Assembly (NCBI RefSeq): GCF_003584565.2
Contig: NZ_CP031010.1
Location: 1,984,001-2,048,000, forward strand
DNA length: 64,000 nucleotides
Reading direction: 5' to 3'
DNA from: Alteromonas sp. RKMC-009
GTDB lineage: Bacteria > Pseudomonadota > Gammaproteobacteria > Enterobacterales > Alteromonadaceae
Numbering within the stretch: position 1 is the first letter of the stretch; each line of letters opens with the position of its first letter. Shown piece by piece: positions 26,812 to 35,714 of this stretch. The translations under genes were made by a program, and so were the position numbers. The notes below the pieces were generated by a model that worked only from the letters and a program-made list of their open reading frames with translations, had not been told where the DNA came from and searched no databases.

Positions 26812-27069
26812 TTATCCTAAGAAATTGAAAACTGCGGTGCGGGCAAAAGCAAACAGGGCCTGCCGGCGCTTGCCGGGCGGATCATCACTGGTTGCACCTT
26901 TCCAGGCACCGGCACCGAAACAGGTAAGCAGGGTTTCGGGGCGGGCAACAAAAAGTCTTGCTGTCACTTTAGCATGGTTCACTGCAACCGCACTTTCATA
27001 TTGCGATATTTCGTAGTTTTCCTGCGCCTTGTCACGGGCGCGCAGTGCCGAAGTTAAAAACAGGTTCAT
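26812..27069 (-). CDS. Hypothetical protein in the YqjK position of a yqjDE-like operon
   Basis: 85 aa. The N-terminal half is charged and helical (ARDKAQENYEISQYESAV), followed by TARLFVARPETLLTCFGAGAWKGA and a basic tail (GKRRQALFAFARTAV). It does not resemble E. coli YqjK closely in sequence, but has the same place (third gene after a DUF883 and a holin-like gene) and a similar hydrophobic middle. Its ATG overlaps the stop of the preceding gene (ATGA), so it is translationally coupled and very probably real. Confidence 0.7.
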   Translation of the reverse strand: MNLFLTSALRARDKAQENYEISQYESAVAVNHAKVTARLFVARPETLLTCFGAGAWKGATSDDPPGKRRQALFAFARTAVFNFLG

Positions 27070-27644
27070 GATTTTGTTTCCTCCTGTTTTTCCTCTTTGT
27101 TCACACCAACAGCCTGTAACAGCGTTCTGACTGCAGGCATCAGCGAGATGTAGCGGTAAGCATTTCTGGCTATCGCAAATGCAGCCACCGCCAGAGCGAG
27201 ATTAAGTACAAAAACAATCAGTGCTGTTATGCCGTTGTGAACGTTAAAATGATGCAATGTGATGGCGATACCGATATTGGCGATGAGCCAGCAGAAGCAG
27301 GCAAACACGAATGTCGCCAGAATTGATATGCCGGTGACGACCACTGATTGCCTGGCCACATTCACTTCGGCCGCGGTAAGGTCCGCCAGTGCTATCAATT
27401 CCTGCTGCTTTTGATACAGCACCCATTGAGCATTGGTTATCATGTCGTCCAGCGAAGGGTCAGACTCATCGGAAGTCTCTGCGTCTTCGTTGGCTGCGTC
27501 TTCAGCGTAAGGATCCTGACGGCCTTCCGGTGATTCTGAGCGGGAAGGAGAAAAACCCCGGTCAGTGTCACTGACCAGGGCTTCGTCGGGAATGTGCCCG
27601 GTGACCATCTCTTCACCGGGACCAGTCGGCTCCCTGACACTCAT
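27066..27644 (-). CDS. yqjE: Phage-holin-superfamily membrane protein, YqjE-like
   Basis: 192 aa from ATG 27644. A long acidic N-terminal extension (about 75 residues rich in Glu/Asp/Ser) precedes the YqjE/Phage_holin_3_6-type part: helical QKQQELIALADLTAAEVNVARQS, then two long membrane helices (TGISILATFVFACFCWLIANIGIAI and ITALIVFVLNLALAVAAFAIA). The start lies 1 nt after the yqjD-like stop. Despite the domain name there is no phage gene here; in enterobacteria these proteins are membrane proteins of stationary-phase cells. The acidic extension is longer than in E. coli YqjE. Confidence 0.82.
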   Translation of the reverse strand: MSVREPTGPGEEMVTGHIPDEALVSDTDRGFSPSRSESPEGRQDPYAEDAANEDAETSDESDPSLDDMITNAQWVLYQKQQELIALADLTAAEVNVARQSVVVTGISILATFVFACFCWLIANIGIAITLHHFNVHNGITALIVFVLNLALAVAAFAIARNAYRYISLMPAVRTLLQAVGVNKEEKQEETKS

Positions 27645-27645
27645 G

Positions 27646-27975
27646 TTACTTTTTACGTAAAAGTGAAGTAACCAGCATACCTGCAGCAAACGCGATACCA
27701 GCGGCTGCTACCGGGTTTTCAATAGCGTATTTACGTACGCCAGAGGCCTTCCATTTAGCATCCATCTGGGCCTTACGTGCTGCCATATTCTCAGCAGAGT
27801 CAGACGCGGTGGAGCGGATATTCTGTTCGGCACGGGCCGCTGATTCCGCCAGCTTATCTACAGACGAGTGCAGAGAAGCCTGAGCTTTGTCTGTAAAAGG
27901 ATGAGTCGAATCAGCCACACCGTTAGATGTCTTCGTTGCTGAAGCTGGTGAAGCGGTTGATGCTGCATTAGCCAT
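27646..27975 (-). CDS. yqjD: DUF883 protein, YqjD/ElaB-like
   Basis: 109 aa. Ala/Ser/Thr-rich amphipathic helix in the first 80 residues and a C-terminal tail anchor NPVAAAGIAFAAGMLVTSLL followed by RKK. This is the layout of YqjD/ElaB, C-tail-anchored proteins that in E. coli bind ribosomes in stationary phase. First gene of the four-gene minus-strand group; AAAGGAG upstream of ATG 27975 is strong. Confidence 0.88.
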   Translation of the reverse strand: MANAASTASPASATKTSNGVADSTHPFTDKAQASLHSSVDKLAESAARAEQNIRSTASDSAENMAARKAQMDAKWKASGVRKYAIENPVAAAGIAFAAGMLVTSLLRKK

Positions 27976-28147
27976 AATAATTTCTCCTTTTTGGAATGTT
28001 CACAAGGAGTATTGCAAGGCCAGTACCAATACGAGTATTAATTTAAATCATTGATAAGTAGTGGTTTTTGTTTCCGGTGAATTGATGTGTTTTGCCCAGG
28101 CCGGCGTTTGTTACAGGTTGCCTGTAATAATTGCAGGCAACCTCTTA

Positions 28148-30217
28148 CTAAAACAGCGTGGCGAGATCGTTCCGGTTAACCGGTTTGAGCAACGTGCCGG
28201 CGATGTCGACGTTTTTTAAGTCATTTTCATCAGGCTCGCGGCCACTGACAATGTATATCTTCAAATCTTTGTGGTCCTGACGGATATCGCTGGCAAGGCT
28301 GATCCCGTCAGCATCCGGCAGGGTTAAATCCAGCAGGGCGGCATCGAATGGCTTTATCGCAATGAGGGATTTCGCGTCGCGGGCATTATGTGCAACCTCA
28401 ACACTGTGGCCCAGGTGACTGAGCAACAGCTTCATCAACTCTGCAGCATCGTGATCATCTTCAACCAGTAATACCTGTTTTCCGTCAGAATCGCCGGGCT
28501 GATTGTCACTGCTATCTGAAAGCGGGGGAGAGGACTCTGTGTCAGGTGTTTTATAAGGTACAAACTCCAGCGCTTTATTAACATTGGATGCTTCATCTTC
28601 TGAAGGCTTTGCCATTCCCGGTGTGCTGATAAGATATCGATCCAAAATTTCAAACAGTGCCGGTTTATCGATGGGCTTGCCAAGCACATCATCAAATCCT
28701 TCGTCCAGCAGCGACTGTCTCAGGCCTTTTCTGCTGGCGGCGGTAATTGCTACTACGGCGACATTACACTGGTGTTTACGCATGGCTTTAAGGGCATCAA
28801 TGCCGTTCATCACCGGCATGTGTATATCCATCAGCACCAGGTGATAAGGTTTGCCCGCTTGTTCAGCCTGCAAAACGGCTTCCAGCGCTTTAACACCGTT
28901 CTCAGCATAGGACACAGTTGCATGACACTGACTGACCATATGACCGGTCAGCTTTCTCAGTTCACGTAAATCGTCAACGATAAGTACCCGGCCGGTGACA
29001 TGAAGATGGTTCTTGCTGAGTTCATCCGGTGTTGGCGCTGATAACCGGAAGACGTCAAAATGCTGTTCGCTGATGTCACCCGGATCAATGGTGAAGGAGA
29101 AAGTACTGCCGCGGCCAAATACTGACTCAACACTGATTTCTCCGCCCATTTTGGACACCAGTTCACGGCATATCGCCAGGCCCAGACCCGCGCCGCCATG
29201 GTTAGCCCGCATAACATCTTCAATCTGTTCAAAAGGACGAAAGATGTCACCCAGTTTGTTTGGGGGCATGCCGATACCCGAGTCGGTAACCCGGAATAAC
29301 AGCAATTCTTTATTATCAGATTTTCGGGGGGGCAGGGTTTCCACTGACACCCGGATGGTACCGGTATCAGTAAACTTAACCGCATTACTGATAAGGTTGA
29401 TTAATACCTGTCTGAGCCGGGTGGGATCGGCGGTAATAAAATCCGGAATGTCGTTTTGCGAAAAGACTTCCATGGAAAGCCCTTTGTCTTTCGCAGCCAG
29501 ATTCATCAGTGAATGGACGTCTGTGAGAAAGCCGTTGAGATTCACTTCTCTGAGTGAAAGCTCAAGCTTATTGGCCATAATGCGTGACATATCCAGCAAA
29601 TCGTTCAGCAAACTGAGCAGGTGTTTGCCATTGGTGTGGATAATCGACAATTCCTGGTTCATCGGTTCGTTGGCTTCATCGTCAAGCAGCAGCTCGGTAT
29701 AGCCCAGAATGGATGTCAGCGGTGTGCGTAACTCATGGCCAAGGTGGGCGAGGAACTTATCTTTTGCTTTATTTTGTTGCTCAACTTTATGACGTTCGAT
29801 GCGCTCGTTTTCTATTTCGCGACGAACCATGGCATATCGCATGGTCCGCATGAAACGGGGGGATTCGATTTCGCTTTTGTTCAGATAGTCAGCAGCACCG
29901 GCACGCATCACCATGTCATCCACCTGACTGTCTGTCTGTCCGGTCAGAATAACAACAGGAACGGTGATACCCGCAGCTTTAAAGGTGGCAAGCACATCAA
30001 GTGCATTTTCTGCCCCTAAAATGTAGTCCAGCAAACAAATGTCAAAGGTGCGCTTCTGAAAAGCATCTATGGCGGCCTTGCCGTTTGTCACCCATGTGAT
30101 GTGGAATTTAGGGTCTTCACACTGGGACATATAGTCGGCGGTGAGGAAATAATCATCCTCATCGTCTTCTACCAGTAAAACCCGAATAACTTCTGCCACG
30201 CTTGTTTCCCCGTGCAC
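28148..30217 (-). CDS. Hybrid histidine kinase, REC-HisKA-HATPase-REC-REC
   Basis: 689-aa cytoplasmic protein. Receiver 1 (residues ~10-130) has EDDEDD and Asp64 (CLLDYILG); its Lys position reads NKSE. HisKA carries His161 in GHELRTPL; the ATPase shows LINLISNAVKFT, DSGIGMP and GGAGLGLA. Receiver 2 (VLIVDDLREL, LMDIHMPVMNG) and receiver 3 (VLLVEDDHDA, ALLDLTLPDADG, LLKPVN) follow. There is no membrane segment, so it takes its signal from receiver 1, probably phosphorylated by another kinase. It is the last gene of the five-gene operon, 17 bp after the single-domain regulator. Confidence 0.93.
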   Translation of the reverse strand: MHGETSVAEVIRVLLVEDDEDDYFLTADYMSQCEDPKFHITWVTNGKAAIDAFQKRTFDICLLDYILGAENALDVLATFKAAGITVPVVILTGQTDSQVDDMVMRAGAADYLNKSEIESPRFMRTMRYAMVRREIENERIERHKVEQQNKAKDKFLAHLGHELRTPLTSILGYTELLLDDEANEPMNQELSIIHTNGKHLLSLLNDLLDMSRIMANKLELSLREVNLNGFLTDVHSLMNLAAKDKGLSMEVFSQNDIPDFITADPTRLRQVLINLISNAVKFTDTGTIRVSVETLPPRKSDNKELLLFRVTDSGIGMPPNKLGDIFRPFEQIEDVMRANHGGAGLGLAICRELVSKMGGEISVESVFGRGSTFSFTIDPGDISEQHFDVFRLSAPTPDELSKNHLHVTGRVLIVDDLRELRKLTGHMVSQCHATVSYAENGVKALEAVLQAEQAGKPYHLVLMDIHMPVMNGIDALKAMRKHQCNVAVVAITAASRKGLRQSLLDEGFDDVLGKPIDKPALFEILDRYLISTPGMAKPSEDEASNVNKALEFVPYKTPDTESSPPLSDSSDNQPGDSDGKQVLLVEDDHDAAELMKLLLSHLGHSVEVAHNARDAKSLIAIKPFDAALLDLTLPDADGISLASDIRQDHKDLKIYIVSGREPDENDLKNVDIAGTLLKPVNRNDLATLF

Positions 30218-30234: not shown

Positions 30235-30687
30235 TTAATCGTGGGGTAACTCTACAAACTCAATCCAGTAACGTCCTAATGCCCGCATGAGGTCAACCAG
30301 ACCTTCAAAATTTACCGGCTTGGTGATATATGAAGCGCAGCCAAGATCATAGCCTCTCAGCATGTCTTCTTCCTCTTTCGAGGTCGTCAGAATGACTACA
30401 GGAATGCCTCTCAGAGACGGGTCAGCTTTGATTTCCTGTAACGCTTCACGGCCGTCCTTCCTGGGCATATTTAAATCCAGAAGAATGAGACTGGGGCGGG
30501 GCGAGTCTTTCGGATCGGCATATTTTCCTTCACGGCGCAGGTACTCCAGAAGCTCCACACCGTCTTCGACGCAGTACAGGTTATTCAGTACGCGGCTTTC
30601 TTTTAGTGCATCGAGGGTAAGCAAACGATCGTCTTCGTCGTCATCTGCCATCAGAATATTTATTGGTGTGCCATGTTTAAGAGACAT
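30235..30687 (-). CDS. Single-domain response regulator, Rcp1-like
   Basis: 150-aa CheY-like receiver without output domain. ADDDEDD at the acidic pocket, Asp acceptor in LILLDLNMPRKDG, Thr in VVILTTSKEE and Lys in YITKPVNF are all present, so it should be fully functional. The long loop around EYLRREGKYADPKDSPRP is typical of Rcp1-type regulators that pair with phytochrome- or CHASE3-type kinases. Its start overlaps the CHASE3 kinase gene by 11 bp, arguing that they are a cognate pair. Confidence 0.92.
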   Translation of the reverse strand: MSLKHGTPINILMADDDEDDRLLTLDALKESRVLNNLYCVEDGVELLEYLRREGKYADPKDSPRPSLILLDLNMPRKDGREALQEIKADPSLRGIPVVILTTSKEEEDMLRGYDLGCASYITKPVNFEGLVDLMRALGRYWIEFVELPHD

Positions 30688-32188
30688 GTTTTACTACTCC
30701 TTCGCTGTTTGTCGCAAACGGTTCGCCATTGACAGGCATCGTAATGACAAAGCGCGATCCTTTGCCAGGTTCACTGAATGCTTTTATAACGCCATTGTGC
30801 CGCTCTACTATCCGGCGGCACACGGCAAGTCCTATTCCCGTTCCTTTGTAGGCACTTCTGCCATGTAAACGCTGGAACGGCGCAAATATTTTTTCAGCAA
30901 AAGACTGTTCAAAGCCAATGCCGTTATCTTCAACTGTGATGGTTACCCATTCGTATTCATCTTTCAACAAAATGGGTTCGAGCTCTTCCTCTGTAGACGG
31001 GCGGGAATTCAGGGAAATAACCGGTGGGGTATCTTCAGATCTGAACTTAAGCGCGTTGGACATCAGATTGAGCAACAATTGTTCAATTTGCGTTTTATCG
31101 CACTGCACCACCGGCAGGGAGCCAGCATTAATAGTGGCTTTACTTTCTTCTATTGCAATTTCCAGGTCGCTGGTGACATTGTCGAGGATTTCAGACAAGG
31201 CAACTTCTGAGAAGTCCTTACCTCTTGTGGTCACCCGGGAGAAAGCGAGTAAGTCACTGATTAACATCGACATCCGTTCAGCTGCATTGAGCATGCGCTG
31301 CAGAAAGTCTCTTCCCCGTTCATCCATCACGTCAGCATAGCCAGCTTCCAGACGGTTACCGAAAGCGCGAATCTTCCTTAACGGTTCCTGTAAGTCATGG
31401 GAGGCGACGAAAGCGAAATCTTCAAGTTCGCGATTGCTCCGGGACAGCTCATCTGCATACAGTTTGAGTTCCTGCGTGCGACCCTCAATTTTATCTTCCA
31501 GTTCTTCATTGTATTCTTCCAGATCCCGCTGGTGTTTAACGGTTTCCCGCAAGTTAAGGCGCAATAAGATAAGAATGGCGATGATCAGCAAGCCGGTGGT
31601 GATACCGGAAATGATGAGGGTGGTTACCGAGTCTGAACGCAGGCGCATCAGGCTGTCGAGGTGCTTAACCTGAGCCTCTCTTTCTGTGGCATCCACCCTG
31701 TCATAACGTAAATCGAACTCATCGTATAAGCTCAGGCCCAAATCGGTATTCACCATAGATAATGCTTCAGAGTATTCACCGGCACGGGTAAGCTCTACGG
31801 TTTTGATAAGCTCGTTAATTTTCGCCTTACTCAAATCGATTAAATCTTCGATATTATCTTCCTGTTCGGGAAGATCCGATTCCACAGATGCGGCTTCAAC
31901 TTCTTCAAGCAGTTCATTGAGCTTGTTCAGGGTGATGGTGTAATCGGTGAGGTAGGCTTCATCTTTGGTTAGCAGGTAACCCCGTTGCCCGGATTCAGCA
32001 CGAAGTACAGCCATGTGAAGTTTATTGATAGCATTTATCACGCGGTTGGTACTGAACAGCCTGCTCTCAAGTGAGGCAAGCTCATCCAGTGTACTGACAA
32101 CGTAAAATGCATTACCGGTAATAATAACAATGACCACGGTAACCAGCGTGATCCAGCTGTAAGCAGATTGAACAACTTTATTCAGCAT
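30677..32188 (-). CDS. CHASE3 sensor histidine kinase
   Basis: 503 aa. Helix 1 (residues ~12-33), periplasmic CHASE3 domain (34-185; INKLHMAVLRAESGQRGYLLTKDEAYL), helix 2 (~192-212), coiled coil, HisKA with the acceptor in ASHDLQEPLRKI, and HATPase with LLNLMSNALKF, DNGIGF, YKGTGIGLAV. CHASE3 senses an extracytoplasmic signal of unknown nature. Third gene of the operon; 6 bp after the stand-alone phosphoacceptor-helix gene. Confidence 0.93.
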   Translation of the reverse strand: MLNKVVQSAYSWITLVTVVIVIITGNAFYVVSTLDELASLESRLFSTNRVINAINKLHMAVLRAESGQRGYLLTKDEAYLTDYTITLNKLNELLEEVEAASVESDLPEQEDNIEDLIDLSKAKINELIKTVELTRAGEYSEALSMVNTDLGLSLYDEFDLRYDRVDATEREAQVKHLDSLMRLRSDSVTTLIISGITTGLLIIAILILLRLNLRETVKHQRDLEEYNEELEDKIEGRTQELKLYADELSRSNRELEDFAFVASHDLQEPLRKIRAFGNRLEAGYADVMDERGRDFLQRMLNAAERMSMLISDLLAFSRVTTRGKDFSEVALSEILDNVTSDLEIAIEESKATINAGSLPVVQCDKTQIEQLLLNLMSNALKFRSEDTPPVISLNSRPSTEEELEPILLKDEYEWVTITVEDNGIGFEQSFAEKIFAPFQRLHGRSAYKGTGIGLAVCRRIVERHNGVIKAFSEPGKGSRFVITMPVNGEPFATNSEGVVKHVS

Positions 32189-32194
32189 ACATTA

Positions 32195-32419
32195 TTATTC
32201 CGCCGTGCCGCTGGCCAGTTCATCCATCATTTCTGTCAGGGCGTGGCTGCAATCTTTTGTACTTACGATAATTTTATCCAGCGCTTCCTGCGCTTTTTCT
32301 ACCGGAATATCGCCGTTCAGCGCCATCTTTACCAGTTCGGCCTGCATGGAGATGCGGTTAAGCGGTTTTCTTGCATCATGTACCCACTTTGCAATTACCG
32401 CCAGCTTTTCATCAGTCAT
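32195..32419 (-). CDS. Stand-alone histidine phosphoacceptor (DHp/HisKA-like) mini-protein
   Basis: 74 aa: helix 1 contains WVHDARKPLNRISMQAEL with His14, the H-box pattern of kinase dimerisation domains (H-D/E-x-R-x-P-L-N), and a second helix with an acidic, Cys-containing stretch (KIIVSTKDCSHALTEMMDELA). There is no ATP-binding domain at all. It is preceded by AAAGGA, lies 11 bp after the sigma-54 regulator gene and 6 bp before the CHASE3 kinase gene, so it is a genuine operon member. It may serve as a phosphotransfer intermediate, or as a decoy or partner subunit for the kinase; function is inference. Confidence 0.8.
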   Translation of the reverse strand: MTDEKLAVIAKWVHDARKPLNRISMQAELVKMALNGDIPVEKAQEALDKIIVSTKDCSHALTEMMDELASGTAE

Positions 32420-32430
32420 GGATCCTTTCC

Positions 32431-33765
32431 TCAGGACTCGTCTTTGCTCAAATCACCGTATGCGTGCAAACGGTTATAGAGTGTTTTGGTACTGATCCCC
32501 AGCATCTCTGCTGCCAGTGTTTTATTACCGTTCACTTTCTCGAGAGTGGCATAGATTAATTCTTTTTCCACATCCTCAATGGTCCGTCCGGCTTCCAGCG
32601 CCGTCGTCGTTGATTGTTTTTTCGCGAAAGGGGATTCAATTGTCTTCGGTAATTCTATGTTGGTTTTGTCCGGGTCACTCATGATGGCAGCACGGTGCAC
32701 AAAGTGACGCAGTTCACGTACGTTACCCGGCCAGTCGTAGGCAGTGAGGGTATCGAGCTGGGCTTCATCCCATTCAAAACGGGTATCATTTTCTTTATTG
32801 AATTCTTCAATAAATTGCATGGCCAGAAGCGGAATATCTTCTTTGCGTTCCCGCAATGGCGGGATCGTGATGGGAAACACGGCGAGACGAAAATAAATGT
32901 CTTCCCGCAATACTTTGCTCTCAGCGATTTCTTCCATCCGCCGGTTTGTCGCTGATACGACGCGGCAGTTTACCGGAATGGTTTTCGAGCCGCCCACGCG
33001 GATGACCACTTTATTTTCCAGCACCCGTAACAGGTTAGGCTGCATATCGATGGGCATTTCAGTGATCTCATCCAAAAACAGCGTACCGCTTTCAGCCTGT
33101 TCAAATACCCCTTCCTTACGGTTCACCGCGCCGGTGAAAGCGCCTTTTTCGTGACCAAATAATTCACTGCCGATCAATTCTTTAGAAAACGCACCACAGT
33201 TGGTGGCGATGTACGGGCCGGTTACATCAGAGGCCTGATGAATTGAAGCGGCAACCACTTCTTTACCCACGCCGCTTTCACCCAGCAACATGACGTTTGC
33301 GCTGGTGCGGCTTACCCGTTCAATAAGCTTGTATAATTCTTTCATTGGTGCAGATTCACCAATGAGATGACCGAAATACTTCTTAATTTTATTGCCACCG
33401 GAAGCCGGTTTTTCTTTTTTTCCGGACAGGGCCGCTTCGATGTCTTCCCGCTGTATGGGCTTGACCAGATAATCGATATTCGGTCCGCACAGGCCCTTGA
33501 TAATGCCCCGGACAGAAGGATGGCCGGTAATTAACGTCACTTTGGGACGTTTGGGCAAGGCATCGAGTTCTTCAAAAAGGTGTACGCCGCTACCATCGGG
33601 TAGCATGAAATCCAGCAGAACATGGTCGAAGGTTTCTTTTTCCAGCCATTCCCTGGCTTCGGCAAGGTTGCCTGCGGTCAGAATGTCATGACCCAAAAAT
33701 TCGATAATTGTGCAAGCTACCTCGGTAAACTCAGGGTCGTCATCCACAAGTAAAACAGTCAGCAC
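32431..33765 (-). CDS. Sigma-54-dependent response regulator (NtrC family)
   Basis: 444 aa. Receiver with DDD (8-10) and Asp52 (LLDFMLPDGSG); AAA+ domain (~135-365) with Walker A GESGVGKE, the sigma-54-contacting GAFTGA loop, and Walker B LFLDEITEMP; C-terminal Fis-type helix-turn-helix (NKTLAAEMLGISTKTLYNRL). It activates sigma-54 promoters when phosphorylated. The start is GTG 33765 with AAAGGA upstream. First gene of the five-gene operon; upstream 92 bp is AT-rich and shows no obvious sigma-54 site, so autoregulation is not visible. Confidence 0.94.
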   Translation of the reverse strand: MLTVLLVDDDPEFTEVACTIIEFLGHDILTAGNLAEAREWLEKETFDHVLLDFMLPDGSGVHLFEELDALPKRPKVTLITGHPSVRGIIKGLCGPNIDYLVKPIQREDIEAALSGKKEKPASGGNKIKKYFGHLIGESAPMKELYKLIERVSRTSANVMLLGESGVGKEVVAASIHQASDVTGPYIATNCGAFSKELIGSELFGHEKGAFTGAVNRKEGVFEQAESGTLFLDEITEMPIDMQPNLLRVLENKVVIRVGGSKTIPVNCRVVSATNRRMEEIAESKVLREDIYFRLAVFPITIPPLRERKEDIPLLAMQFIEEFNKENDTRFEWDEAQLDTLTAYDWPGNVRELRHFVHRAAIMSDPDKTNIELPKTIESPFAKKQSTTTALEAGRTIEDVEKELIYATLEKVNGNKTLAAEMLGISTKTLYNRLHAYGDLSKDES

Positions 33766-33857: not shown

Positions 33858-35714
33858 TCAGTGACCGCCGGTGTGAGTGCGGCTTTGCGGTGATGTCAGG
33901 GAAGTACCGTCCTGCATCACAGAAAGGATGTCTTTTGCCGGCATGGGTTTGCCGTAAAGATAGCCTTGTGCGATGTGACAGTCCAGCCGGGTCAGTAGGC
34001 TGGCTTGTTGCTGTGTTTCCACGCCCTCGGCAATCACGTCGATCCCCAGGTTACGGCATAAAGACACAATCCCTTCCACTATTTTTGCGTCACGGTTTCC
34101 TTCAGCCAGACCGCGAATAAATGACTGGTCAAGTTTGACAGTATGAATATCCAGTTCCCGCAGGTAGGCAAATGAACTCATGCCGGTACCAAAATCGTCA
34201 ATCGATGTGGCAATACCCATTTCTCTGAAATCTGACAGTACACGGCGACTTACTGCGATGTCCACCATCGTGGCGCTTTCAGTGAGTTCAAATTCCAGCA
34301 AGGCCGGTTTAATACCTGACTTTTCCAGCAAACTACGGACAAAGGGGATGAATGCGCTGTCCATTAAATTATAAGCAGACAGATTGACTGAAACAGGTAA
34401 TTCAAACCCGTAGGATGACCAGGTTTTGATCTGATTGACCGCCATTTCCACCGTGTAACGGGTAAAAGCATGAATAATTCCGCTTTGTTCGACCAAATCA
34501 ATGAATAACGAAGGTTGCAGCAGTCCTTCTTCAGGGTGCTGCCACCGCACAATGGCTTCGGCGCCTGCCAGCCTGCCACTGCCAATTTCTACTTTGGGCT
34601 GATAATGCAGTACAAATTCTTTATTGTGCAATGCAGAGCGAAGCTGACTGCGCAACGTCACTTTAATGGTGCTGTTATATGCCAGTCTCTCATTATAAAT
34701 TTGCACACCAAGACGTAATTTCTTGGCCCTGTGCATGGCGTTCTCTGCGTTCCTGATCAGCATTTCGGGGTGATGACCATGCTCAGGGAAGCAGGCAACA
34801 CCAATACTGCAACTGACCTCAAATGCACTGTTTCCGATAAATAACGGCTCGCGGCAATCGTACAGCAGGGTAAACGAGCGGCTGAGTACATCGTCTGCCG
34901 GCAGATCAGGGTGCCAGATAACAAATTCATCACTGCGGTAGCGATATACCTTAACGCCTTTTCCGGCAATATTTTTTAACCGCTGTGAAAAAGCAAACAA
35001 CATTCTGTCACCCATAGCGTGTCCCAGCGCATCATTTATTTCTCTGAAGCGGTCGAGATCAAGAAAAAACAACGCGCCATAGGTTGAATTGAAGGTATCA
35101 CCAGACAGCAGTGCATTGCGGTTGGGAAGTTTGGTCAATGCGTCCTCAAGAGCCAGTCGCTCCAGCGTGTTATTAGCCTGCTCAAAGCGGCGGGCAATGA
35201 AGGCGGACATCAGCAGGGCAGCCCACACTGCAACCCAAAACGTAATAAAGCCGGCGACAGAAAGGGTGTTGACTATCTGTGAGGATATCTCAGTGAGATC
35301 TTTTGTGCGCCAGATAACGGTTAACGGGGCTTCATCTGCGGTTGAAGGCAGTTCACGGATGTAAAGACGCAGGTTATTAAATTCTGTGACCGGCTCGCCT
35401 GCATTTGCCGCCAGTGTGTCAGGAAGGTCAGCTATGCCGGACTTTTGATACAAGATTACCGGACCCCGTTTCACCATCATTACCGCATCAGGCATGAGTT
35501 TTTTGTTAATGGCCGGCTGACTGGCAAGGGTGCTGATAAAAGGCATCTGGCTGTCGAAATACTGTTTTTCAAAATCGGTTTCAAGCTCAATCAGAATGCC
35601 ATGGCCGAGGTAGCACAATACGCCTATCAGCAGCATAGATAAGCCTGTGGAGCCTGCCAGCAAGCGCTTGCGCAAGCTGGCTTTATTATGTTGAATTTCG
35701 ACTCTATGCGGCAT
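33858..35714 (-). CDS. GGDEF/EAL membrane protein, degenerate GGDEF, probable c-di-GMP phosphodiesterase
   Basis: 618 aa. Two membrane helices (~18-38 and ~150-172) bracket a small periplasmic domain. The GGDEF domain retains LPNRNALLSG but its signature reads YRSDEF, so it should not make c-di-GMP. The EAL domain has AEAIVRW (EAL as EAI), NLSAYNL, FELTES, IDDFGTGMSS, KLDQSF and IAEGVET, all consistent with phosphodiesterase activity. It lies 92 bp upstream of the phosphorelay operon on the same strand and could be co-regulated. Confidence 0.9.
   Translation of the reverse strand: MPHRVEIQHNKASLRKRLLAGSTGLSMLLIGVLCYLGHGILIELETDFEKQYFDSQMPFISTLASQPAINKKLMPDAVMMVKRGPVILYQKSGIADLPDTLAANAGEPVTEFNNLRLYIRELPSTADEAPLTVIWRTKDLTEISSQIVNTLSVAGFITFWVAVWAALLMSAFIARRFEQANNTLERLALEDALTKLPNRNALLSGDTFNSTYGALFFLDLDRFREINDALGHAMGDRMLFAFSQRLKNIAGKGVKVYRYRSDEFVIWHPDLPADDVLSRSFTLLYDCREPLFIGNSAFEVSCSIGVACFPEHGHHPEMLIRNAENAMHRAKKLRLGVQIYNERLAYNSTIKVTLRSQLRSALHNKEFVLHYQPKVEIGSGRLAGAEAIVRWQHPEEGLLQPSLFIDLVEQSGIIHAFTRYTVEMAVNQIKTWSSYGFELPVSVNLSAYNLMDSAFIPFVRSLLEKSGIKPALLEFELTESATMVDIAVSRRVLSDFREMGIATSIDDFGTGMSSFAYLRELDIHTVKLDQSFIRGLAEGNRDAKIVEGIVSLCRNLGIDVIAEGVETQQQASLLTRLDCHIAQGYLYGKPMPAKDILSVMQDGTSLTSPQSRTHTGGH

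Follow-up and report, generated by a model that had tools for sequence, protein, structure and literature searches.

Hybrid histidine kinases that carry C-terminal receivers normally require a separate histidine carrier, which is either an Hpt protein or a pseudo-kinase (passages of PMC9981736). Among the described carriers that derive from histidine kinases, Spo0B of the Bacillus subtilis sporulation phosphorelay, ChpT of Caulobacter and Brucella, and PhyT of the Sphingomonas general stress response come closest to the protein considered here. The latter is a 74-amino-acid (aa) protein of Alteromonas sp. RKMC-009, encoded within a stretch of 64,000 nucleotides (contig NZ_CP031010.1, positions 1,984,001 to 2,048,000), which is called the window in the following and supplies the coordinates unless another locus is named. 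The protein comprises a single DHp (HisKA) hairpin, and its gene lies between those of a sigma-54-dependent response regulator (RR) and a histidine kinase. We consider it probable, at about 0.58, that it functions as an ATPase-less, Spo0B/ChpT-like phosphotransferase in the Hpt slot between a hybrid kinase and this RR, a reading drawn from sequence comparison. The gene and its key codon are located as follows.

32195..32419, minus strand: stand-alone DHp (HisKA) hairpin protein of 74 aa (Pfam PF00512, conservation, AlphaFold2 model)
32378..32380, minus strand: codon of His14, the predicted phosphoacceptor (sequence, conservation, alignment with residue 260 of HK853)

Relation to Described Phosphotransferases

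By analogy, the protein likely works most like Spo0B and ChpT, the kinase-derived phosphotransferases of the DHp type. As in the sporulation phosphorelay, the operon also holds a single receiver domain (REC) protein and a DNA-binding RR. However, Spo0B is a degenerate histidine kinase (passages of PMC5898713), whereas the 74-aa protein has no second domain, and ChpT possesses a C-terminal domain of an atypical Bergerat fold, which is unable to bind ATP and has no counterpart here. Because this second, ATPase-like domain is absent, the protein stands outside the Spo0B/ChpT kind as defined so far. PhyT is likewise a kinase-derived phosphotransferase placed between a single-domain RR and an output RR, but it is membrane-anchored and has a degenerated ATPase domain and an HRxxN motif of the HWE/HisKA_2 type (both according to passages of PMC5898713). 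With Hpt proteins (PF01627) the DHp protein would share the functional slot, that of a histidine carrier between the REC of a hybrid kinase and an RR; it nevertheless belongs to HisKA, and PF01627 has been found neither in the protein nor at that place of the genome.

An isolated HisKA hairpin of nearly equal length has been solved as "domain A" of EnvZ (PDB 1joy, 67 aa; match at E 0.13), which is an engineered fragment in contrast to the natural gene described here. In the P2CS database, any HisKA protein without HATPase or receiver is filed as a "phosphotransfer protein" (passages of PMC2716373), for which the 74-aa protein qualifies, and one HisKA protein has been counted in this class in a survey of Azospirillum (passages of PMC4618731). 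The class is, however, an annotation category, and the passages concerned describe no tested DHp-only member. In the literature searched, with most subscription journals lying outside it, no tested DHp-only phosphotransferase has been found.

The Gene and the Predicted Fold of Its Product

The open reading frame (ORF) starts with ATG, and we read GGAAAGGATCC, which lies in front of it on the minus strand, as its ribosome-binding site. It is separated by 11 bp from the gene of the sigma-54 RR and by 6 bp from that of a CHASE3 kinase, the place and distances already given in a preliminary description of this DNA, which had also recognized the two-helix H-box part of a histidine kinase, with His14 in VHDARKPLNR and without an ATPase domain. 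Pfam and the sequence agree with these points: the H-box occupies residues 13–22 with the histidine at position 14, HisKA (PF00512) matches residues 6–66 with 28.5 bits against a cut-off of 26.9, and neither HATPase_c nor Hpt (PF01627) has been detected at E ≤ 10. The only other Pfam match at this level is ThrE, which remains below threshold (17.3 of 26.3 bits). An AlphaFold2 model, based on an alignment of 32 sequences, shows a single hairpin of helices 3–34 and 40–72 with a mean pLDDT of 92.0 and a pTM of 0.74. No residues lie outside the hairpin, and thus there is no degenerate C-terminal ATPase-like domain. Sequence and model together confirm that the predicted protein is one HisKA/DHp hairpin and nothing else.

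The residue ranges of a structural alignment (model residues 1–74 on chain residues 247–319 of HK853) place His14 on residue 260 of HK853, and the H260A mutant of HK853 is named in titles of the matches from this alignment. HK853 is also the best Foldseek match (6rfv_B; E 0.053, TM 0.78). None of the 414 Foldseek matches reaches E ≤ 0.001, and most fold matches are common helical hairpins; those with the highest Z-scores in the structural alignment are unrelated hairpins. Taken by itself, a match to so common a fold is therefore of little weight. A search of solved structures with the sequence again gives HK853 as the best hit (E 0.014).

Automatic names for such proteins range from hypothetical protein and histidine kinase to threonine/serine exporter. 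The protein of 32195–32419 and its homologues P0025, P0082 and P0088 have been named threonine/serine exporter or membrane protein YjjP, a naming that is probably caused by the sub-threshold ThrE match.

A Conserved Family of Short Genes

A search of the genus (Alteromonas and Salinimonas, judged from the names of the closest proteins) found the hairpin gene in 55 of 59 genomes, and a search of the family in 85 of 295, so that the absence or breakage in relatives which the preliminary description had envisaged did not occur. Of 369 genomes searched in the class, only the 2 that belong to the genus contain the hairpin as a stand-alone gene; the 13 other genomes with a match carry it in frames of 364–1450 aa (≤43.9 bits), and the six loci read resemble ordinary kinases. 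A protein search with the 74-aa query matched 110 of 110 candidates, 109 of them at E ≤ 1e-9, and is uninformative on long relatives as it admits only 0.55–1.75 times the query length. An alignment-based search returned 410 proteins, and the names among the matches listed (best 120 of 410) include Alteromonas, Pseudoalteromonas, Rheinheimera, Paraglaciecola, Salinimonas, Colwellia and Arsukibacterium.

From the fetched loci, 136 copies have been extracted, i.e., 121 from complete operons, 4 from other RR-linked places and 11 linked to a GGDEF regulator; loci L080 and L082 were omitted, being replaced by larger loci of the same places. In every case the gene is a separate short ORF, with lengths between 63 and 115 aa. 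The phosphoacceptor histidine, whose conservation had been in question, is kept in all 136 copies (121/121, 4/4 and 11/11 in the three sets). Within the 121 operons, representing 112 distinct sequences, His14, Arg17, Asn21, Met25, Glu28 and Ser58 are invariant, proline at position 19 occurs in 120, and position 15 holds D in 117, N in 3 and E in 1. The ratio of nonsynonymous to synonymous substitution (dN/dS) over residues 9–68 has a median of 0.21 in 238 pairs with dS between 0.1 and 1.5, out of 7,260 possible pairs among the 121 sequences, and exceeds 0.5 in 13 pairs. These comparisons of sequences confirm the hairpin gene as a real conserved family and more than a chance ORF.

In Mycobacterium tuberculosis, Rv0600c/Rv0601c form a split kinase; a literature search listed no paper with those names. 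For the gene described here, a split or truncated kinase, including the prefix of a split kinase gene considered in the preliminary description, has been rejected. With a 32-member profile, the family set yields 97 copies of at least 79.4 bits in short open frames, clearly set apart from 8 kinase-sized matches of at most 32.9 bits in frames of 422–1057 aa. For one exception, G318:C337, a 587-aa frame is given in one listing and 92 in another; the fetched DNA shows an ORF of 88 aa.

Linkage to the Response Regulator

Orthologues of the sigma-54 RR (E ≤ 1e-120) have been found 86 times in the 295 family genomes, and the hairpin gene follows next on the same strand in 86 of 86. Both genes occur in the identical 85 genomes. 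The remaining 11 of the 97 hairpin copies come after the gene of a REC-GGDEF regulator (11/11 by similarity, two of them by Pfam), and hence each of the 97 is immediately preceded by an RR gene. The CHASE3 kinase (E ≤ 1e-75) is present in 84 of the 85 genomes that hold the pair, and it is next after the hairpin gene in 83 of the 86 RR-linked copies, corresponding to 83/97 of all copies. At the threshold of E ≤ 1e-120, no RR module without the hairpin gene has been detected. Below it, 18 genomes lacking the hairpin gene (14/210 in the family set, 4 in the genus set) have been compared, in which the best RR reaches at most 276 bits versus at least 478 for the orthologues. In the 4 genus genomes these best matches (≤249 bits) are paralogous, and therefore the whole module is missing there.

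Rearranged loci illustrate the same association. In genome G077, the CHASE3 sensor and HisKA-HATPase-REC-REC form one fusion protein, giving the order RR, DHp, hybrid kinase; the operon no longer includes a separate kinase or a separate REC. In G088, the RR-DHp pair stands alone, with kinase, REC and hybrid kinase on another contig. G067 contains a second RR-DHp pair that is oriented divergently from the genes for a heme oxygenase and for a bacteriophytochrome hybrid kinase ending in a REC (locus L076, 1766–6837), possibly a light-sensing version of the relay. Judged by gene order, the constant partner of the hairpin gene is the RR and not the kinase, as the pair persists when the kinases move or a hybrid kinase replaces them.

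At locus L102 (5831–11346, genome G062), the RR gene is interrupted by one TAG and the hybrid kinase is divided into two ORFs, with the DHp gene being intact; the breaks may reflect either sequencing error or decay.

Operon Partners and Their Catalytic Residues

The operon runs in the order sigma-54 RR, DHp protein, CHASE3 kinase, single REC, and hybrid kinase with the architecture REC-HisKA-HATPase-REC-REC. Its further members are:

32431..33765, minus strand: sigma-54-dependent RR, REC-AAA+-Fis helix-turn-helix (Pfam; phospho-Asp52 and the GAFTGA residues tested in 120/121, the other being a gap)
30677..32188, minus strand: CHASE3 membrane histidine kinase with HisKA and HATPase_c (Pfam; His264 and the N-box, G1 and G2 residues tested in 121/121)
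30235..30687, minus strand: single-domain receiver (REC) of 150 aa (Pfam; phospho-Asp71 in 121/121)
28148..30217, minus strand: hybrid histidine kinase REC-HisKA-HATPase-REC-REC (Pfam, three REC stretches)

In the hybrid kinase, His161 is kept in 120 of the 121 operons (one gap), the phospho-acceptor aspartate of the first receiver (REC1) in 118 (three gaps), and those of REC2 and REC3 in all 121. The operon thus contains five receivers, i.e., that of the sigma-54 RR, the single REC and three in the hybrid kinase, where the preliminary description had counted three, and all five keep the aspartate wherever it is aligned. Conservation extends likewise to the phosphoacceptor histidines of both kinases and to the N-box and G-box residues tested. 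Hpt matches have been found 11 times in the genome and 0 times within the window, and by domain content the DHp protein is the only candidate histidine carrier in the operon.

The CHASE3 kinase has Glu at the fourth position after its histidine (H+4; HDLQEPL) in 121 of 121 operons, and therefore the usual phosphatase residue is missing there as well. Upstream of the RR gene lies a GGDEF-EAL gene (33858–35714, minus strand), followed by a LysR gene. Similarity places the GGDEF-EAL gene in front of the RR gene in some of the genus loci (L050–L056), but in most of the other loci examined it is absent from the vicinity of the operon.

Residue Signatures and the Constrained Face

The nine residues before the histidine (−10 to −2) show a mean consensus frequency of 0.35 in the DHp protein versus 0.99 and 0.88 in the two kinases of the operon. 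From His−1 to His+20, the corresponding values are 0.84 versus 0.87 and 0.86. In the ChpT/CtrA complex, the receiver docks on the lower half of the bundle, i.e., on the side of His−1 to His+20 (passages of PMC9981736). A variable segment before the histidine, combined with a conserved receiver side, is the pattern expected of a hairpin that is without sensor input and has retained receiver binding. The overall identity to the DHp domains of the two kinases is low, amounting to 13/62 and 15/53 aligned positions.

In kinases of the HisKA type, the kinase reaction depends on an acidic residue next to the histidine (H+1), and phosphatase activity on Thr or Asn at H+4 (passages of PMC3510030). The 74-aa protein carries Lys at H+4. 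Among the 121 operon copies, H+1 is D or E in 118, and H+4 is K, G, R, A or S in 113 and N in 7, with 1 residue not displayed. The copies linked to a GGDEF regulator differ, as all 11 have N at H+4 and 2 of the 11 an acid at H+1 (otherwise N in 6, S in 2 and R in 1); all of these counts come from related copies and are far from independent. The second set comprises:

Loci L073, L075, L089, L100, L107 and L111–L116: DHp paralogue directly after a REC-GGDEF regulator (residue signature N at H+4)

The contrast suggests a carrier-type and a phosphatase-type version of one small protein, and the GGDEF-linked copies may be phosphatases. As a tentative generalization, which we regard as possible rather than probable, the hairpins would form a minimal class of histidine phosphotransferases with an obligate RR partner and two forms, namely a sigma-54-linked carrier leading from hybrid kinase to RR and a REC-GGDEF-linked stand-alone phosphatase of a diguanylate cyclase.

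The Proposed Relay and Its Alternatives

From these data we infer a route in its dimerisation, phosphorylation steps, partners, direction and target. Two DHp hairpin proteins would pair to a dimeric four-helix bundle that serves as the histidine phosphotransferase. Under the control of the CHASE3 kinase and the single REC, the hybrid kinase would phosphorylate its own C-terminal receivers, from which the phosphate would move to His14 of the DHp protein and further to Asp52 of the sigma-54 RR. The phosphorylated RR would then turn on sigma-54 promoters, probably that of an adjacent DUF883-like gene. We favor this relay because the histidine and its motif are invariant, the linkage to the RR is complete (86/86), the receiver aspartates are intact and the window contains no Hpt, and also because RR, DHp protein and a hybrid kinase with C-terminal receiver remain together where the context is reduced (G077, G067). 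Covariation of the DHp protein with the receiver-interface columns of REC2 of the hybrid kinase exceeds that of all 160 control blocks, in an exploratory analysis with ~40 effective sequences, overlapping control blocks and five receivers tried, and this weakly supports the relay.

Several observations weigh against it. The covariation with the sigma-54 RR is not clearly above controls, being reached by 12% of CHASE3-sensor, 22% of AAA+ and 0% and 2% of CA-domain blocks; that with REC3 is mixed (0–40% of control blocks), and the single REC and REC1 give no signal in this test. Nor does the expected positive control, the pair of the hybrid kinase's own DHp and REC2 (0.08). The 11 Hpt matches elsewhere in the genome could serve the hybrid kinase. 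Spo0B is not among the solved-structure and fold matches listed for the hairpin, and the ChpT matches listed by Foldseek are not significant (E 1.3–1.5). Finally, the retained acid at H+1 fits a phosphorylation in trans by an ATPase domain equally well. In such a case, the ATPase domain of the CHASE3 or the hybrid kinase would phosphorylate His14 directly, and the DHp protein would act as an adaptor that passes the phosphate to the sigma-54 RR. Park et al. in 1998 reportedly achieved phosphorylation of the isolated EnvZ domain A by domain B, and a kinase gene adjoins the hairpin gene in 83 of the 86 sigma-54-RR-linked copies. We nevertheless regard this adaptor as unlikely, given that the segment before the histidine is unconserved in comparison with the kinases, that only 2 of the 11 GGDEF-linked copies keep the acid, and that the pair of G088 is found away from the kinase trio.

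The constancy of the RR as neighbor (97/97) would also be expected if the hairpin bound its receiver as a phosphatase, phosphate sink or sequestering partner in order to turn the RR off or drain it, and a relay running in reverse would drain the RR too. The GGDEF-linked copies, with N at H+4 in 11/11 and no H+1 acid in 9/11, even display the signature of a phosphatase that does not accept phosphate from ATP (passages of PMC3510030). For the sigma-54-linked copies such a role appears improbable, as at least 113 of 121 have neither N nor T at H+4 and the histidine is invariant. The phosphatase activity of CrdS hardly changes in the H371A mutant (half-life 2.6 min versus 0.7; passages of PMC3510030), so that a pure phosphatase would have no need of an invariant histidine. 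The relay is preferred over the phosphatase because Thr/Asn at H+4 has mostly been lost in the operon copies. The preliminary description had left the choice between a minimal phosphotransfer protein and one that titrates a kinase; the comparative data favor the former, which stays conditional, and speak against the latter. Mixed dimers that block the CHASE3 or the hybrid kinase are suggested by the fold family shared with their DHp domains and by the common operon, but the low identity to these domains, a conservation centered on the histidine and the receiver-binding side, and a gene that accompanies the RR and not the kinase (97/97 versus 83/97; G088, the second copy of G067 and the 11 GGDEF-linked copies) make titration very improbable. 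The domain content, being that of a piece of a kinase, would suit a decaying and functionless fragment, an idea refuted by conservation and with practically no credibility left: the gene persists in 55/59 genus and 85/295 family genomes with an invariant histidine and motif and a median dN/dS of 0.21, and no family member is fused to an ATPase domain.

Candidate Output of the Operon

Downstream of the hybrid kinase gene, a predicted promoter and two small genes have been considered as candidate output:

28013..28028, minus strand: predicted sigma-54 promoter TGGTAC-N5-TTGCA before the DUF883-like gene (pattern scan, conservation across loci)
27646..27975, minus strand: DUF883-like small protein with hydrophobic C-terminus, candidate target (sub-threshold DUF883_C in relatives)
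27066..27689, minus strand: holin-like membrane protein (sub-threshold PF07332, 21.8 bits against a cut-off of 28.4)

The 5.0 Mb genome contains the strict pattern TTGGTAYNNNNNTTGCA a single time, at 28013–28028, and the reversed control pattern 1 + 2 times. A site TGGTAY-N5-TTGCA scoring at least 9 of 11 has been found directly in 13 of 16 loci and in 3 more within over-long ORF starts; 3 further loci scanned gave 2 matches, in one of which A replaces the first T, and 1 miss (L103). The same score is reached by 100 of 2,000 random 220-base stretches. When eight upstream regions are aligned, the two promoter boxes are conspicuous against diverged DNA. From this sequence evidence, the promoter of the DUF883-like gene is a probable target of the sigma-54 RR. 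The site is also kept in loci where the DUF883-like gene is on the opposite strand (L071, L077, L078, L081). A sigma-54 promoter in front of the RR gene itself has not been accepted: a score of at least 9 is reached in 35 of 121 upstream stretches (300 bases each), but the places are scattered and the near relatives clustered.

The DUF883-like protein matches no Pfam family at E ≤ 0.001, and in 4 of 4 scanned relatives DUF883_C (PF19029) gives sub-threshold scores (16.1–20.6 of 27 bits), which makes for a weak assignment. The holin-like gene is probably co-transcribed with the DUF883-like gene; where it starts is uncertain because of the overlap between its listed ORF and the preceding gene. 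Proteins of the DUF883 type have the Escherichia coli relatives YqjD and ElaB. Both figure in papers on ribosome hibernation and stress, and on this basis a stress response is a fair guess for the output of the operon, and no more.

Implications

If the proposed relay holds, the 74-aa protein would rank as the smallest dedicated DHp-type phosphotransferase and as the end point of the route, the decay of ATPase domains in kinases, that produced Spo0B, ChpT and PhyT. It would explain how the sigma-54 RR of a widely held marine operon is fed by a hybrid kinase without an adjacent Hpt partner. A natural carrier or remover of phosphate of 70 residues would further allow receiver specificity and the kinase and phosphatase residues of HisKA to be studied without the rest of the kinase. 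Should the reading of two forms prove true as well, two activities of HisKA would be found divided between separate proteins of 70 residues.
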